A stretch of 64,000 nt of DNA from Verrucomicrobiia bacterium (lineage in GTDB: Bacteria; Verrucomicrobiota; Verrucomicrobiia; Limisphaerales; CAIMTB01), in NCBI GenBank assembly GCA_019634625.1, contig JAHCBA010000001.1, positions 124,001 through 188,000 on the forward strand, written 5' to 3'. This document shows positions 49,634 through 55,931 of the stretch, in pieces. Positions within the stretch are counted from its first letter, which is position 1. Each line of letters opens with the position of its first letter. The translations under genes and the position numbers were made by a program. The notes under the pieces were generated by a model. It was given only the letters and a program-made list of their open reading frames with translations. It was not told the DNA's origin and made no database searches.

Positions 49634-52600
49634 TTAATGCGTCGTTTCCGTGTCCAGAGGGACACCCGACTTCATCCCCGCATATTCCACGCCCGCCCAC
49701 GACGGCAGGCAGTTCTCCTCCCCCAGCAGTCTCAGGATCATCCCGACATCCCAAACCCGCAGTTGCCCGTCTTCGCCAATCGCCCCCAGCCAGCGATCCC
49801 CTCCTGCAAACCGCAGCCGCTCAAACCTCGAAAACGCCCCCGCCCCCAATAACACCACCGGCCTTAGTCGAGGTGACTCCTCCACCCTGAAGTGTCCCAG
49901 GACTATTCCTCCCGAACTCAGCGCGCCGGCCGCCACCACCCCCGTCCGCTGGACCGCCAGTTCCATCAGCGAATCCTCCCCCCATTCCCCATCCACCCGC
50001 ACGGCCGGGTTCGCCCCGATAACATCCACCACCAGCACCTCCCCTCCACCGCTCACCACACACCAACGGTTCCCGACAAACGCCACACGGCGCCCGCTTC
50101 CGGGGAGTGCCGCCGCAACCCGGTCCCCCCACCCCGCACCCCAGACCCGCAGCCCCTCATCCACCCAGGCAATCCTCCCCCCATCCCCCGACATCGCCAG
50201 ATCCTCCACCCCGCCCCCTCCCGGACGTTCCATCTCCACGACCTCCCCACCCCCAAGCTCAGCCCATTGGATCCGGCCCCTGCGCACCATCGCAGCCCGG
50301 CTCTTTCCCACGTTCAACACAATGCGGGCCGGTGCCTCCTCTGGATCCACCTCCCTGAATGCGCGGCTCAATGGCAGAGCGCCCCGGTTCAGGGTTCCTC
50401 CATCCCAGACCAGACCGAGATCCCCGAACCGCGAGGACGCCACCAGGCTTGTCGGCGTCAGGAACCGTACCCCGCGACTCATGGCAGCCGTTCCCGATGC
50501 CGCATGCTCGCGCCGGTTCCCATCAAACACCGTCACACCCCCCGAACCCGCACAGGCCACCAGGATTCCGTCAGGTGCCACGTCAAAATCCTCGATCCGG
50601 CCCAGCCGCTGGCTGGCGAAGGCGCGGGTGACCGGACTCGGAACGCGGCGGAGCGCCCCGACGCCGCCATCCTCCCGATGAATCACGAGGTCGTCTCCCC
50701 GCCGCCCCAGGGCCACAGGACGGGAACCGCGGGTGACGGCGACCGACGGGCGCCCGGTCAGCACATCGAAACAGTACACACCGCCGGCCTCATCCGCCGC
50801 CACGAGATAGCCGTCGCGGGGAAAGCGTGCGAGAAGCTCCCACTGCCTCGGATGCCCCGCCTCGCTGTCACCCTTCGCCGGATACCGGGCCAGCGGTCGA
50901 TCCACCCGGACCGCACGTTGTCCCCCCTCCTCGATGCCCCAGGCGTACAGGTACGCATCCGCAGCGGCAGCAATCATCCGGTTCGATGCGGTCCATATCG
51001 CCTTCCGCACCGGTGCCGGGTGATACGCGCATACCGCGATCCGGCCGACACTCAACTCCCACACCAGCAGTTCCAGCGAATGGAGGCTCCACTGGGCCAG
51101 AAGCCGGTCGTCCGGACTGAACGCCAGGCCTGTGGGCGGACGGGATCGCACACCGGAATCGTCGCCCGCCAGAATTCCGCTCACAGCCCAATCCGGGGCC
51201 GCCCGCAGTTCAACCCCGCCTTCGTTCCAGCCGTCCGCAAGACCCACCGCGAGTATATCCCCCCGCGTGTTCCACCCCAACGAAAGTGGCGGACCCCCGA
51301 GGGCGATCCGGGCCTCCTCGGTCCCGTCGCTCCCATTCAGGAGAATGACCTGCCGCCGCCACCCGACCGCCGCACGCGCCGCCATCGGCGCCAGCGCCAG
51401 CACCGCGGGCTGCTCCAATTCCACCTCGCTCCGCCACAGCCGCCTCCCGTCCAGCCCGTCGATCAAGTCCACCCCGCCCCCCGCCACCTGTCGCAGCAGG
51501 AATCTCGAACTCCCCTCAAGCACCGCCTGCAGCCCCCGCCCGTCCAACGCCAAACCCTTCCCCTCCTCAATCGACCAGTCCTCCAACTCAAGAACCCGCA
51601 CATAGGCATCCGCCATCCGTCGCCGCTCGTCGTCCGACCGGGCCTCCACCCGCGCAAGGACGCTCCGAACCGATTCAATACGGTTCGGCGCCTCACTCGT
51701 CGCCAATCGTGCCAGTTCGTTGAGCTGGCTCGACTGGGCGTTGATCCGGGCTTCGCTCTCCGCCGCCGACGCAGCCCGCGCCCGATCCACGGCGTACCAC
51801 CCGAACCACGCCAGCAGGGCCACCACCCCGCTCGCCAGCACCGCCGTCAGCGCAACCCCCCGCCGGTAGGCCGCCCGCTCGCGCGCCGCAATCTCCGCCC
51901 GGCGCCGTTGCTCCCCCGCCTGCCTGGCTTCCAGCGCCCGCAGGCTCGCCGCCAGCTCGCCCGCACTGGCCCACCGCCGGCCCGGCGTTCCCGCCAGACA
52001 CCGGTTCAAATCCTCCCGAAGCAGCGGATCCTCGATCCGCATGGGCCAGTCCGCCGGGTCCAGAGCGGCCTTGAGATTGCCCACCAGCAACTGCCACAAC
52101 ACCACCCCCAGACTGTAGATGTCCGACCGCGCCGTCGCCGCCCCCCCTTCCAACACCTCGGGCGCCAGATAAAGCATGGTCCCCGACAACTCCGACCTCG
52201 ATATCCCCGACAAGGTGCGCGTGAACCCGGGCCGCCCCTCCGCCGACGCGATCTCATCCAAAACCACCTGCCCGATCCCGAAATCCGCAATCAGTACATG
52301 AACCTCCGCTCCCCCCGAACCCCCAGCCCCCTGATCCCGCACCAGCAGGTTCCCCGGCTTGATGTCCCGGTGCAGGATCCCCGCGTCGTGCGCCGCCTCC
52401 AAGGCCTCCGCCGCCTGCGCCACAATCTCGATCCGCGTCCGCAATGGCACTCCTCCCAACCCGTCCGGTCGCTCCGCACACCACGTCTCCAAATCCCGCG
52501 CATCCTCCCCCTCCATCATCAAATACCATGGCGGCTCATCCAGGGAAACCTCGTGAAGCTGCACGAAATGCGGGTGACGCCCGATCCGCTCCTTCAGCAG

Positions 52601-53842
52601 CCGGTACAGCGTATACTCCCGCCTCAACGTTCGCACCTTCGCCTCGCTGGCGCAGAACTTGAACACCCGACGCTGACCCAGCCGCTCATGCTGCCCCAGC
52701 CACACCTCCCCGGTGCCACCATCCCCCAGCGGTTCGATCAAACGCCATTCGGTCCCGGGTACCATGGCACCCGCGGCAGGCACCCATGCCGGCACAGGCC
52801 TCGCCGGTAGCCCGTAGCTCCCCGACACCCGGGCCATCGCCCGACCCAACGAGGCCACCGAGTAAAATCGATCCGCCGGATCCCGCCGAACCGCCCGCGC
52901 CACCAGCAAATCCAGCTCTTCAGGACAATCCGGCAACACATCCTTCAACCGTGGCATCGGCGCGGTCAGGACCGCCTGCCGAACCGCCGCCAGTCGGGTC
53001 CCCGGCGGAAACTCGAACAGCCGCCGCCCCGACAGAATCTCGAACAGCACCGCACCCAACGCATACACGTCCACGCTCTGCGACCGCCGGAAATCCGTGT
53101 CCAGCCCAAGATGCTGCTCCGGCGCCGCATAGTGGGGCGTTCCCGAGAAATGAGCCGGATCCCCCGCGCTGGTCATCCCCAAAAACCGCGCAATCCCAAA
53201 GTCCAGAATCACCGGCCGCTCATCCGAACCCACCAGGATGTTCGCCGGCTTCAGGTCCCGATGAACAATGTGACGGTCGTGGGCCGCCTGGACCGCCTCA
53301 CACACCGCCACCATCACCTCCAGTTTCCGCTTCCGATCGTCGCCAACAGCCCCCGCCCAGCGGTCAAGCGCCTGCCCATCCACCAGTTCCATCGCAAAAT
53401 ACGGCAGCGGCCCGCGAACCGGATCCTCATGATATCCCGCATCGAACACCCGCACGATCCCAGGATGTCTCAACCGCCCCAGAAGCCGGACCTCATCGAG
53501 CGAACGCTCCAGGGATTGGGCCGAAACCACCGCCGGATGCAGGATCTTCAGCGCCACATCCCGCTCGATCGTCCGCTGCGTCGCCCGCCACACCGCACCC
53601 ATCCCCCCGTTGCCGATCTTCTCCACCAGCGTGTAGCCCCCACCCACCACCGCGCCAGGCCCAAGCCCGTTCTGGATCGGAGGCAGACCGTGCCATACCC
53701 CCACCAGCGTCAATACCGACGGCGGTTCCCCCGCAGCAGCCAGTTCCTCAAGCCGCACCAACGCCTCTTCCGCCGACAACGCCCCCAACTGCTCCGCCAA
53801 CTCCTCCACCCGCCGCCAGTGCCCTTCCGTCGGAATCCTCAT
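49634..53842 (-). CDS. tandem Ser/Thr protein kinase with TM segment and WD40-like C-terminus
   Basis: A 1402-aa protein with two complete-looking kinase domains. Kinase 1, about 68-335: glycine loop KIGNGGMGAVWRA, Lys99 (VALKIL), HRD 194-196 with Lys198 and Asn201, DFG 214-216. Kinase 2, about 366-635: PLGDGGTGEVWLG, Lys395 (VFKFC), HRD 491-493 with Lys495 and Asn498, DFG 520-522. After that come a coiled, charged stretch, one TM helix (AVLASGVVALLAWFGWYAV, about 667-685) and roughly 700 residues of WD40-like beta repeats (LAFSPDDRLLAQWS, LAMSGDGGRIAWVDE, GEDGQLRVWD). Kinase-TM-WD40 proteins behind ECF sigma factors are common in this superphylum; two kinases in one chain are not. The ATG overlaps the sigma factor stop (ATGA). 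Confidence 0.93.
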   Translation of the reverse strand: MRIPTEGHWRRVEELAEQLGALSAEEALVRLEELAAAGEPPSVLTLVGVWHGLPPIQNGLGPGAVVGGGYTLVEKIGNGGMGAVWRATQRTIERDVALKILHPAVVSAQSLERSLDEVRLLGRLRHPGIVRVFDAGYHEDPVRGPLPYFAMELVDGQALDRWAGAVGDDRKRKLEVMVAVCEAVQAAHDRHIVHRDLKPANILVGSDERPVILDFGIARFLGMTSAGDPAHFSGTPHYAAPEQHLGLDTDFRRSQSVDVYALGAVLFEILSGRRLFEFPPGTRLAAVRQAVLTAPMPRLKDVLPDCPEELDLLVARAVRRDPADRFYSVASLGRAMARVSGSYGLPARPVPAWVPAAGAMVPGTEWRLIEPLGDGGTGEVWLGQHERLGQRRVFKFCASEAKVRTLRREYTLYRLLKERIGRHPHFVQLHEVSLDEPPWYLMMEGEDARDLETWCAERPDGLGGVPLRTRIEIVAQAAEALEAAHDAGILHRDIKPGNLLVRDQGAGGSGGAEVHVLIADFGIGQVVLDEIASAEGRPGFTRTLSGISRSELSGTMLYLAPEVLEGGAATARSDIYSLGVVLWQLLVGNLKAALDPADWPMRIEDPLLREDLNRCLAGTPGRRWASAGELAASLRALEARQAGEQRRRAEIAARERAAYRRGVALTAVLASGVVALLAWFGWYAVDRARAASAAESEARINAQSSQLNELARLATSEAPNRIESVRSVLARVEARSDDERRRMADAYVRVLELEDWSIEEGKGLALDGRGLQAVLEGSSRFLLRQVAGGGVDLIDGLDGRRLWRSEVELEQPAVLALAPMAARAAVGWRRQVILLNGSDGTEEARIALGGPPLSLGWNTRGDILAVGLADGWNEGGVELRAAPDWAVSGILAGDDSGVRSRPPTGLAFSPDDRLLAQWSLHSLELLVWELSVGRIAVCAYHPAPVRKAIWTASNRMIAAAADAYLYAWGIEEGGQRAVRVDRPLARYPAKGDSEAGHPRQWELLARFPRDGYLVAADEAGGVYCFDVLTGRPSVAVTRGSRPVALGRRGDDLVIHREDGGVGALRRVPSPVTRAFASQRLGRIEDFDVAPDGILVACAGSGGVTVFDGNRREHAASGTAAMSRGVRFLTPTSLVASSRFGDLGLVWDGGTLNRGALPLSRAFREVDPEEAPARIVLNVGKSRAAMVRRGRIQWAELGGGEVVEMERPGGGGVEDLAMSGDGGRIAWVDEGLRVWGAGWGDRVAAALPGSGRRVAFVGNRWCVVSGGGEVLVVDVIGANPAVRVDGEWGEDSLMELAVQRTGVVAAGALSSGGIVLGHFRVEESPRLRPVVLLGAGAFSRFERLRFAGGDRWLGAIGEDGQLRVWDVGMILRLLGEENCLPSWAGVEYAGMKSGVPLDTETTH

Positions 53843-54417
53843 GCCTCACCCATCCTCGAGGCCGCCTCCAGCATTTTCCGCAGCAACACCCTCGCCTTCT
53901 TCAAATCGCGGTCCACCGTCTTCTCGCTCACCTCCTGAAACTGCGCCATCTCCGCAACCGTGTACCCGAAGTAGTAGTGCTGACGCAGGATCCCCGCGAG
54001 CCGCGCATCCTGCTCGCCCAGGCGGGTCAGCGCCTCCTCCAGCATCAGGACCCGCTCCGGCTTCTCCTCCGCCGCGGCCGGCAGATCCCGAAACACATCC
54101 TCGTCCGGTGGCAGGTATAGCACCTTGCTCCGACCCTTCGCCCGCCGCCGCCGCGCATGGTCCACCAGCGCATTGCGCATGGCGACCGACATCGCCGCCA
54201 TGAAATGCCCGCGGTTCTCCCACCGCACATCCTCCCACGCCTCCTCCTTCAACTTCGCCCGCCGCAACGCCGTCATCGCCAGCGCCGTCGGCGTGTAGGT
54301 GTGGTTGCGGGATTCAAATGCCAGCAGTCGCGCCGCGACCATCCGCAATTCCCCGATCAAGTCCCGCAGATCGTCCACCGTGACGCATTCGCCCGCCGCC
54401 TGCCCGGATGGCTCCAT
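53839..54417 (-). CDS. ECF sigma factor (Sigma70_ECF type) heading the kinase operon
   Basis: A 192-aa sigma factor of the Planctomycetota/Verrucomicrobiota Sigma70_ECF type. Region 2 is about 15-90 (DLRDLIGELRMVAARLLAFE, GHFMAAMSVAMRNALVDHAR), with the linker KGRSKVLYLPPDEDVF typical of this group. Region 4 is about 125-185 (ALTRLGEQDARLAGILRQHY, YTVAEMAQFQEVSEKTVDRD). The start is ATG at 54417 with GAGAA upstream; the frame runs further upstream without family sequence. The overlap with the kinase gene (ATGA) suggests the kinase controls the sigma factor, as proposed for such pairs. Confidence 0.92.
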   Translation of the reverse strand: MEPSGQAAGECVTVDDLRDLIGELRMVAARLLAFESRNHTYTPTALAMTALRRAKLKEEAWEDVRWENRGHFMAAMSVAMRNALVDHARRRRAKGRSKVLYLPPDEDVFRDLPAAAEEKPERVLMLEEALTRLGEQDARLAGILRQHYYFGYTVAEMAQFQEVSEKTVDRDLKKARVLLRKMLEAASRMGEA

Positions 54418-54980: not shown

Positions 54981-55931
54981 TCACCCTGACCCCATCTCAC
55001 CGAGGCCGCTCCCGCGATCCATCTCCACCCCCTCCCTCACCCGGCCCGCGGTGACCTCCGGCGGCTCCTCCACCGCCACGTCGATCCACCTCGCCGCCAT
55101 CTGATGCCGGAACCACGTCATCTGCCGGCGTGCAAACTGCCACGTCCTGGTCTTCACCCGCGCAATCGTATCCGGCAAATCGGCCAGGCCCTCCAGATGC
55201 TCCACCACCTGCCGATACCCGATGGCCTGCATCGCCGTGCGATTCCCGCGCAACCCCCGTTCCAGCAATCCCCGGGTCTCCTCCACCAACCCTCCCGCAA
55301 ACATCGCGTCCACCCGGCTGTCGATCCGCCGGCGCAAATCGGCGGGCGTCCGCCGCAGGACCACTACCATTCCTGCGTCCCGGCCCTCGACCACCGCCCC
55401 CAACCCGCCCGCCCCCGCCCGACCCGTCCGCCGCAACCGCTCCACCGCCCGGATCACCCGTCGCGGATTCGACCGGTCCACCCGGGCCCACGTCTCCGGA
55501 TCCCCCGCCTCCAGTTCCTGAAGCAGCTCGCCCAAAGGCATCGACTCCAGGGCCGCCCGCTGGTCCGGATCGGATGGGCAATCGTCATCGAGCCCCTCCA
55601 GCCACGCCCGGAAGTACAACCCCGTCCCGCCACACACCACCGATGCCCTCCCCCGACCCTTCACGTCGGCATGCGCCCATCGTGCGCATCCAAGCCAGCG
55701 GGCCGCATCGAACGATTCCCAAGGATCGACCAGATCGATCAGATGATGCGGTACCCGTGCCCGTTCCGCCGCCGTCGGCTTGGCCGTCCCGATGTCCAGC
55801 CCCCGGTACACCTGCATCGAGTCCGCGGTCAGGATCTCTCCACCCAAGGCCTCCGCCAGAACGAGCGCCACCGCCGACTTCCCAGACGCCGTGGGCCCCG
55901 CCAGCAGGACCGTCGGAATCCCTCGCTCCAT
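54981..55931 (-). CDS. miaA: tRNA dimethylallyltransferase
   Basis: A 316-aa enzyme that adds a dimethylallyl group to A37 of tRNAs reading UNN codons. P-loop AGPTASGKSAVAL at 11-23, the family DSMQVYRGLDIGTAKPT, HHLIDLVDPWESFDAARW, GGTGLYFRAWLEGLD, NPRRVIRAVERL, and GNRTAMQAIGYRQ are all present. The start is ATG at 55931 with the usual short N-terminus. The C-terminal 25 residues lie next to the repeat region and may be partly repeat-derived. The TIM-barrel isomerase gene ends 17 bp upstream on the same strand. Confidence 0.95.
   Translation of the reverse strand: MERGIPTVLLAGPTASGKSAVALVLAEALGGEILTADSMQVYRGLDIGTAKPTAAERARVPHHLIDLVDPWESFDAARWLGCARWAHADVKGRGRASVVCGGTGLYFRAWLEGLDDDCPSDPDQRAALESMPLGELLQELEAGDPETWARVDRSNPRRVIRAVERLRRTGRAGAGGLGAVVEGRDAGMVVVLRRTPADLRRRIDSRVDAMFAGGLVEETRGLLERGLRGNRTAMQAIGYRQVVEHLEGLADLPDTIARVKTRTWQFARRQMTWFRHQMAARWIDVAVEEPPEVTAGRVREGVEMDRGSGLGEMGSG

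Follow-up and report, generated by a model that had tools for sequence, protein, structure and literature searches.

A Conserved Tandem Hanks-Type Kinase Encoded beside a Dedicated ECF Sigma Factor in the Verrucomicrobiia

The stretch of DNA analyzed here, termed the window, comprises 64,000 nucleotides of contig JAHCBA010000001.1 (positions 124,001 to 188,000, forward strand; assembly GCA_019634625.1) from a Verrucomicrobiia bacterium of the order Limisphaerales. On its minus strand, positions 49634–53842 encode a protein of 1402 amino acids (ATG start; stop codon at 49634–49636) that carries two complete protein kinase domains, K1 and K2, and the gene of an extracytoplasmic function (ECF) sigma factor lies immediately upstream. 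The domain content of the protein, the separate ancestry of its two kinases, its conservation, its coupling to a dedicated clade of sigma factors, and the odd motif of those sigma factors are the observations on which we base our interpretation. By analogy with known pairs, we propose, at a probability of about 0.6, that the two genes form a one-operon phospho-signaling unit in which a membrane receptor kinase phosphorylates, and thereby activates, the sigma factor encoded beside it.

The protein is modular, and all of its features lie on the minus strand. K1 spans residues 69–331 (positions 52850–53638, with borders from our own hidden Markov model (HMM)) and contains a GNGGMG loop, K99, E117, HRDLKPAN (residue 194), and DFG (residue 214). 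A linker of residues 332–365 (52748–52849) with a W-PA-G--VPGT-W stretch leads into K2, residues 366–641 (51920–52747), in which GDGGTG, K395, E409, HRDIKPGN (residue 491), and DFG (residue 520) are found and the lysine stands in the sequence VFKFC. K2 was delimited by HMM and identified as a kinase by predicted fold, Foldseek, and catalytic residues as well. A hydropathy scan gives a sole strong hydrophobic segment, with peak windows starting at 662–663, which is assigned as a single transmembrane segment at about residues 662–682 (51797–51859). The C-terminal half, residues 701–1402 (49637–51742), is predicted to be a WD40-type propeller, the signal being weak in the window protein and clearer in its orthologues.

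The initial annotation described two complete kinase domains in a kinase-transmembrane-WD40 protein, each with a glycine loop, an ATP-binding lysine, HRD with Lys and Asn, and DFG; its description of the two domains is supported, and the architecture is also kept in orthologues. In a Pfam search, Pkinase matches the open reading frame (ORF) in two stretches (whole-protein E 5.7e-69), and in a genome-wide search with a cut-off of 31.7 bits, one domain scores 140.6 bits and the other 100.1. With profile scores above the cut-off and Lys, HRD, Asn, and DFG in place, K1 and K2 each qualify as a Hanks-type Ser/Thr kinase. Folded alone from an alignment of window and related-locus sequences, K2 is predicted to adopt a kinase fold (predicted local distance difference test, pLDDT, 89.0; predicted template modeling score, pTM, 0.87). 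The outcome that would have refuted the initial annotation, a region that is not a kinase, was not observed. Foldseek searches with this model rank PknA, PknB, and PknI first (E about 1e-16), and PDB sequence searches with K1 and K2 as queries return PknB, PknA, and similar proteins. The relative placement of K1 and K2 was not read from a model of the whole tandem (pLDDT 84, pTM 0.69), since the other rows in its alignment are, with one exception, single kinases. Among the 48 Pkinase matches in the genome, the tandem ORF is the sole one with two full domains; a further ORF is listed twice, but its matches are two halves of a single domain.

Across the order, 8 of 320 genomes have the tandem, namely that of the window and those labeled G003, G004, G266, G271, G272, G273, and G064, which together span four families (f1, f9, f7, and f20). 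A profile search of the order retrieves the same eight, with scores falling from 927.6 to 467.2 bits at the boundary. In a sample of 387 genomes of the phylum, searched at E 1e-60, the window genome is the only one to match; in this sample as in the order surveys, the three best candidates per genome were scored. The orthologues share 41–63% identity over the tandem region, and seven of the eight align over the whole length as a single high-scoring segment pair. Both domains of all eight proteins retain Lys, Glu, HRD or HCD, Lys, Asn, and DFG. By part, identity to the proteins of G003 and G004 is 60% for K1, 67–69% for K2, and 32–33% for the C terminus, and the ratio of nonsynonymous to synonymous substitution (dN/dS) between G003 and G004, obtained by a simple counting method, is 0.13, 0.09, and 0.22, respectively. 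Both kinase domains are under purifying selection.

The two domains differ in ancestry. In a tree of 104 kinase domains, a well-supported branch separates the K1 types from the K2 types (Shimodaira–Hasegawa approximate likelihood ratio test, SH-aLRT, 99). All eight tandem K1 domains form one clade (support 95), and seven of the eight tandem K2 domains form another (support 100), with the K2 of G064 apart. The grouping of all eight K2 domains receives a support of 20/0, which neither establishes nor refutes a single clade; the K2 of G064 is not firmly placed, and its K1 joins the other seven. An independent origin of the G064 tandem was also considered and is a possibility. Domain duplication was considered as the origin of the tandem and rejected, since K1 and K2 lie in different clades; the tandem therefore arose by the joining of two different kinases. 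K1 belongs to the ordinary PknB-like kinases, which are common in the genome of the window. K2 lies inside a cyclase-linked VFKFC clade (SH-aLRT 99; 100/99 in a second tree).

The VFKFC sequence, which lacks an obvious VAIK context, had been put forward in the initial annotation as a sign that the activity of K2 may differ, a suggestion that is not supported. VFKFC is a subfamily signature, read exactly in 26 of 31 non-redundant K2 rows, and therefore represents the family norm and no mark of lost activity. Lys is present in 30 of the 31 rows, as are Glu, HxD, and Asn in the same 30; the exception is a pseudokinase of the window genome with Arg and HGN. At the DFG motif, 28 rows read DFG and one reads NFG, and the two rows left unaligned there have DFG in their raw sequence. 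All checked catalytic residues are present in the K2 domains of all eight tandem proteins.

The relatives of K2 carry a different partner. Apart from the window protein itself, a protein search of 58 related genomes gives two full-length matches within the genus (46–47% identity), and outside the genus the same search finds matches to the K2 half alone (36–54% identity). Complete K2 relatives in the order start with a class III cyclase, which PF00211 confirms in all three intact cyclase-K2 proteins scanned (1.6e-17, 2.3e-18, and 4.2e-15). The partner is a cyclase in 21 of the 31 rows, a kinase plus a degenerate cyclase in two (L081 and L082, with a weak Pfam match, 0.0011, and no match, respectively), and K1 in eight; a 32nd row (L061), without a readable partner, stands outside this count. 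The W-PA / VPGT-W linker pattern precedes K2 in both cyclase-K2 and K1-K2 proteins. The window protein is not itself a cyclase-kinase, and its K2 is a domain-level relative of these proteins. As judged from domain order, K1 is in the position where K2 relatives carry the class III cyclase, and K1 may have replaced the cyclase directly, or an intervening cyclase may have been lost, the latter as L081 and L082 suggest.

Several of these K2 loci have features of their own. L081 (G080, contig C123) and L082 (G061, contig C315) encode a PknB-like kinase, a degenerate cyclase, and K2, followed in L081 by TPR; by HMM, neither has an ECF sigma gene directly upstream, and they represent a second route to a kinase ahead of K2. 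The pseudokinase row, L031 (543–5288, minus strand, contig C13 of the window genome), consists of a cyclase, a pseudokinase of the K2 type, with Arg in place of Lys and HGN in place of HRD, and, by eye, a WD40-like C terminus. In L041 (120–2918 and 2705–3961, minus strand, contig C34 of G055), a cyclase-K2 protein is interrupted into two overlapping frames, and K2 is followed by a sensor-like membrane part (by eye a candidate CHASE2-like domain) and then by another kinase.

The sigma factor gene (53839–54417, minus strand) matches Sigma70_ECF (PF07638, E 9.8e-22). Its ORF opens at GTG 54540, and ATG 54417 is proposed as the start from an alignment of orthologues. A search of solved structures with this sigma factor gives one weak match only (E 0.097). 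The sigma stop and the kinase start overlap by 4 nucleotides as ATGA in the window, G003, and G004; in G271, G272, and G273, the kinase frame opens directly past the sigma stop, and in G064 it opens 78 nucleotides further on. An ECF sigma gene is thus directly upstream in seven of seven tandem loci with a contig reaching that far. The eighth, G266, is a probable case: its sigma gene ends contig C99, whose last 46 nucleotides recur at the start of C237, the contig that carries the kinase gene. The two contigs probably join, although the join is unproven because the common stretch is repeat-like. Among K2 loci without this K1, the same HMM finds an upstream ECF sigma gene in none of 17, some of which have little upstream sequence.

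The sigma factors of the tandem loci form a clade of their own. A profile of the eight has matches in 121 of 320 genomes at 1e-25, of which ten score about 218–319 bits and the next best 114. These ten dedicated sigma factors belong to the eight tandem genomes, G144, and G061, and nine of them adjoin this kinase or its 5′ fragment. In G144, the sigma gene is followed by a K1 fragment of 160 residues that is cut by the contig end, and the rest of that assembly (78% complete) holds no K2-type match as strong as the missing half would be expected to give. The dedicated sigma gene of G061 (L281, 1211–2182, minus strand, contig C135; motif QPTALIHT) is an orphan, and the kinase-degenerate cyclase-K2 protein of that genome, L082, lies on another contig.

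Region 2.2 of the window sigma factor reads TPTALAMT (54271–54294, minus strand), with TPTA at the place of the acidic DAED motif and no acid through position 8. Numbered from ATG 54417, position 3 is T44, the position of the EcfP/EcfK phosphosite, and position 8 is T49, which is E or D in other sigma factors of the family. The dedicated sigma factors were aligned with 66 others, that is, the non-identical sigma factors above the HMM threshold from the window genome, the seven other tandem genomes, and the 20 best further matches; this set is not a random sample, and weaker PF07638 matches were left unaligned. All 66 others carry E or D at position 8, and all 10 dedicated ones carry Ser or Thr there. 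At position 1, the 66 others uniformly have Gln, and the dedicated ones have Thr (eight), Arg (one), or Gln (one). A kinase ORF lies within 500 nucleotides downstream of 27 of the 66 (for 14 more, the available sequence is too short to decide), and because all 27 keep E or D at position 8, the change at this position tracks the double kinase and not kinase linkage as such. By this alignment, Ser/Thr at position 8 is the specific sign of the pairing, and the Thr at position 3 is weakened in that role.

The closest known systems are EcfP-PknT of Vibrio parahaemolyticus and EcfK-PknS of Xanthomonas citri (ECF43). In EcfP, the acidic DAED motif is replaced by STTA, and phosphorylation of the second Thr by PknT provides the charge needed to bind RNA polymerase (PMC8999054). 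PknS has a cytoplasmic kinase and a periplasmic repeat domain and phosphorylates EcfK at T51 and linker sites (PMC13147305). Both systems share with the window pair an ECF sigma gene adjoining a Hanks-type kinase gene, a DAED motif of region 2.2 that is missing or reduced, and a Thr at the phosphorylated position; PknS is also a membrane kinase with periplasmic repeats (PMC13147305), as is predicted for the window protein. They differ from the window pair in that they have one kinase domain rather than two and TPR instead of WD40-like repeats, and in that position 8 of the window motif is also Ser/Thr; moreover, the window sigma factor belongs to PF07638 and is not filed as ECF43. From the analogy with EcfP/EcfK, the window kinase should activate its sigma factor by phosphorylation. 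The protein would cross the membrane once, its two Ser/Thr kinase domains, both active, facing the cytoplasm and its propeller-like C terminus probably lying in the periplasm as sensor. The kinase would phosphorylate region 2.2 of the sigma factor encoded just upstream, and the negative charge restored in this way would allow the sigma factor to bind RNA polymerase.

Several points weigh against this proposal. The unit is rare, and even in the genus, two of five genomes have no tandem; downstream of the dedicated sigma gene of G061, no kinase gene follows. Thr occupies position 3 throughout the aligned set (76 of 76 sigma factors) and is hence not specific to kinase pairing. The dedicated sigma factors form a single clade, and their shared motif, in which Ser and Thr both occur, therefore reflects a correlation with few independent events, not ten. 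The WD40 match of the window protein is weak (PF00400 E 0.011, 16.7 bits against a cut-off of 27), although three orthologues exceed the cut-off, with 61.4 bits in G266, 65.4 in G272, and 34.3 in G064. Finally, kinase activity, membrane topology, the sigma factor as target, the assignment of kinases to sites, and the signal are all inferred.

Other roles for the second kinase have to be weighed. A tentative alternative, possible if not probable, is a cascade within one chain, in which K1 would phosphorylate K2 on its activation loop, or K2 would do so to K1, with only one of the two acting on the sigma factor or another target; the initial annotation had likewise suggested cis-activation or regulation of one kinase by the other. 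Each domain has the look of an intact kinase, the linker between them is short (about 35 residues), and K1, in the place of the cyclase of K2 relatives, might regulate K2. A cascade would be compatible with phosphorylation of the sigma factor, not its opposite. It is improbable that one domain is a regulatory pseudokinase. JAK proteins have two kinase folds in tandem, and the window protein resembles JAK and plant tandem kinase-pseudokinases in this respect; in those tandems one domain is without catalytic residues, whereas all eight tandem proteins here keep both sets and their two domains belong to different subfamilies. A K2-type pseudokinase, L031, exists in the same genome, but the K2 of the tandem has the lowest dN/dS (0.09). 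Bacterial tandems of this kind may exist: in the gammaproteobacterial contigs L112 (4468–6297, plus strand) and L130 (3821–5707, plus strand), an active-looking kinase precedes a kinase-like domain in which HGH replaces HRD and DFS or DFA replaces DFG, by eye a tandem kinase-pseudokinase. A chance fusion of neighboring genes with no functional meaning is very hard to credit. Kinases are abundant in the window genome (48 Pkinase matches), and fusions would arise easily; the recurrence of one architecture in four families at 41–63% identity, whole-length in seven of eight, already makes such an accident unlikely, as does purifying selection on both domains.

Within the proposal of a sigma-activating kinase, K1 and K2 may each phosphorylate a different residue of region 2.2 (T44 and T49), with the full charge and activity of the sigma factor needing both kinases. 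This extension, which we regard as unlikely, is suggested by the replacement of the fixed glutamate of the family by a phosphorylatable residue only in the double-kinase clade. If true, it would make the pair a coincidence gate within one operon, and the orphan sigma factor of G061, which has the same Thr and occurs in a genome with the protein L082, could be a second version that acts in trans.

Other known architectures are also close to the window protein. Kinase-transmembrane-repeat kinases are frequent in Planctomycetota (PMC11032199), and kinases are frequent in the window genome and its relatives. Single kinase proteins of Planctomycetota and Verrucomicrobiota with WD40 or TPR repeats share the order of kinase, transmembrane segment, and repeats; the window protein adds a second, unrelated kinase between the first kinase and the transmembrane segment. 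The cyclase-kinase (VFKFC) proteins of the same order share K2, linker, transmembrane segment, and repeats, but have a class III cyclase instead of K1 and, by HMM, no adjacent sigma gene. The KKP module of Pseudomonas prophages also has two Ser/Thr kinases acting together, but in two genes, with a phosphatase and a role in toxin-antitoxin function and defense (PMC11341870). In the literature searched, which left many subscription papers outside, no paper was recognized as describing a bacterial protein that unites two kinase domains in a single chain, and the phrase "two kinase" does not occur in the main texts of PMC1262709 and PMC11032199.

Upstream of the sigma-kinase pair, positions 54981–55931 (minus strand) encode an IPP transferase (Pfam), a tRNA modification gene. 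In G271, G272, and G273, a dihydrouridine synthase-like gene, identified by eye, is upstream (L072, 823–2025; L073, 850–1998; L074, 6912–8006). A tRNA modification gene thus precedes the pair in both lineages, possibly by chance. A 972-residue open frame antisense to the kinase gene (49892–52810, plus strand) is probably a by-product of high GC content.

Direct phosphorylation of a sigma factor by a membrane kinase has been shown for few pairs, and the window holds what is probably a conserved two-kinase version of such a pair. With Ser/Thr exactly at the acid position of the family, its sigma factor offers a clean test of whether a phosphorylatable residue takes the place of a fixed charge where a second kinase is present. 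The presence of a kinase in the place of a nucleotide cyclase points to one route by which the input of receptor kinases may change.

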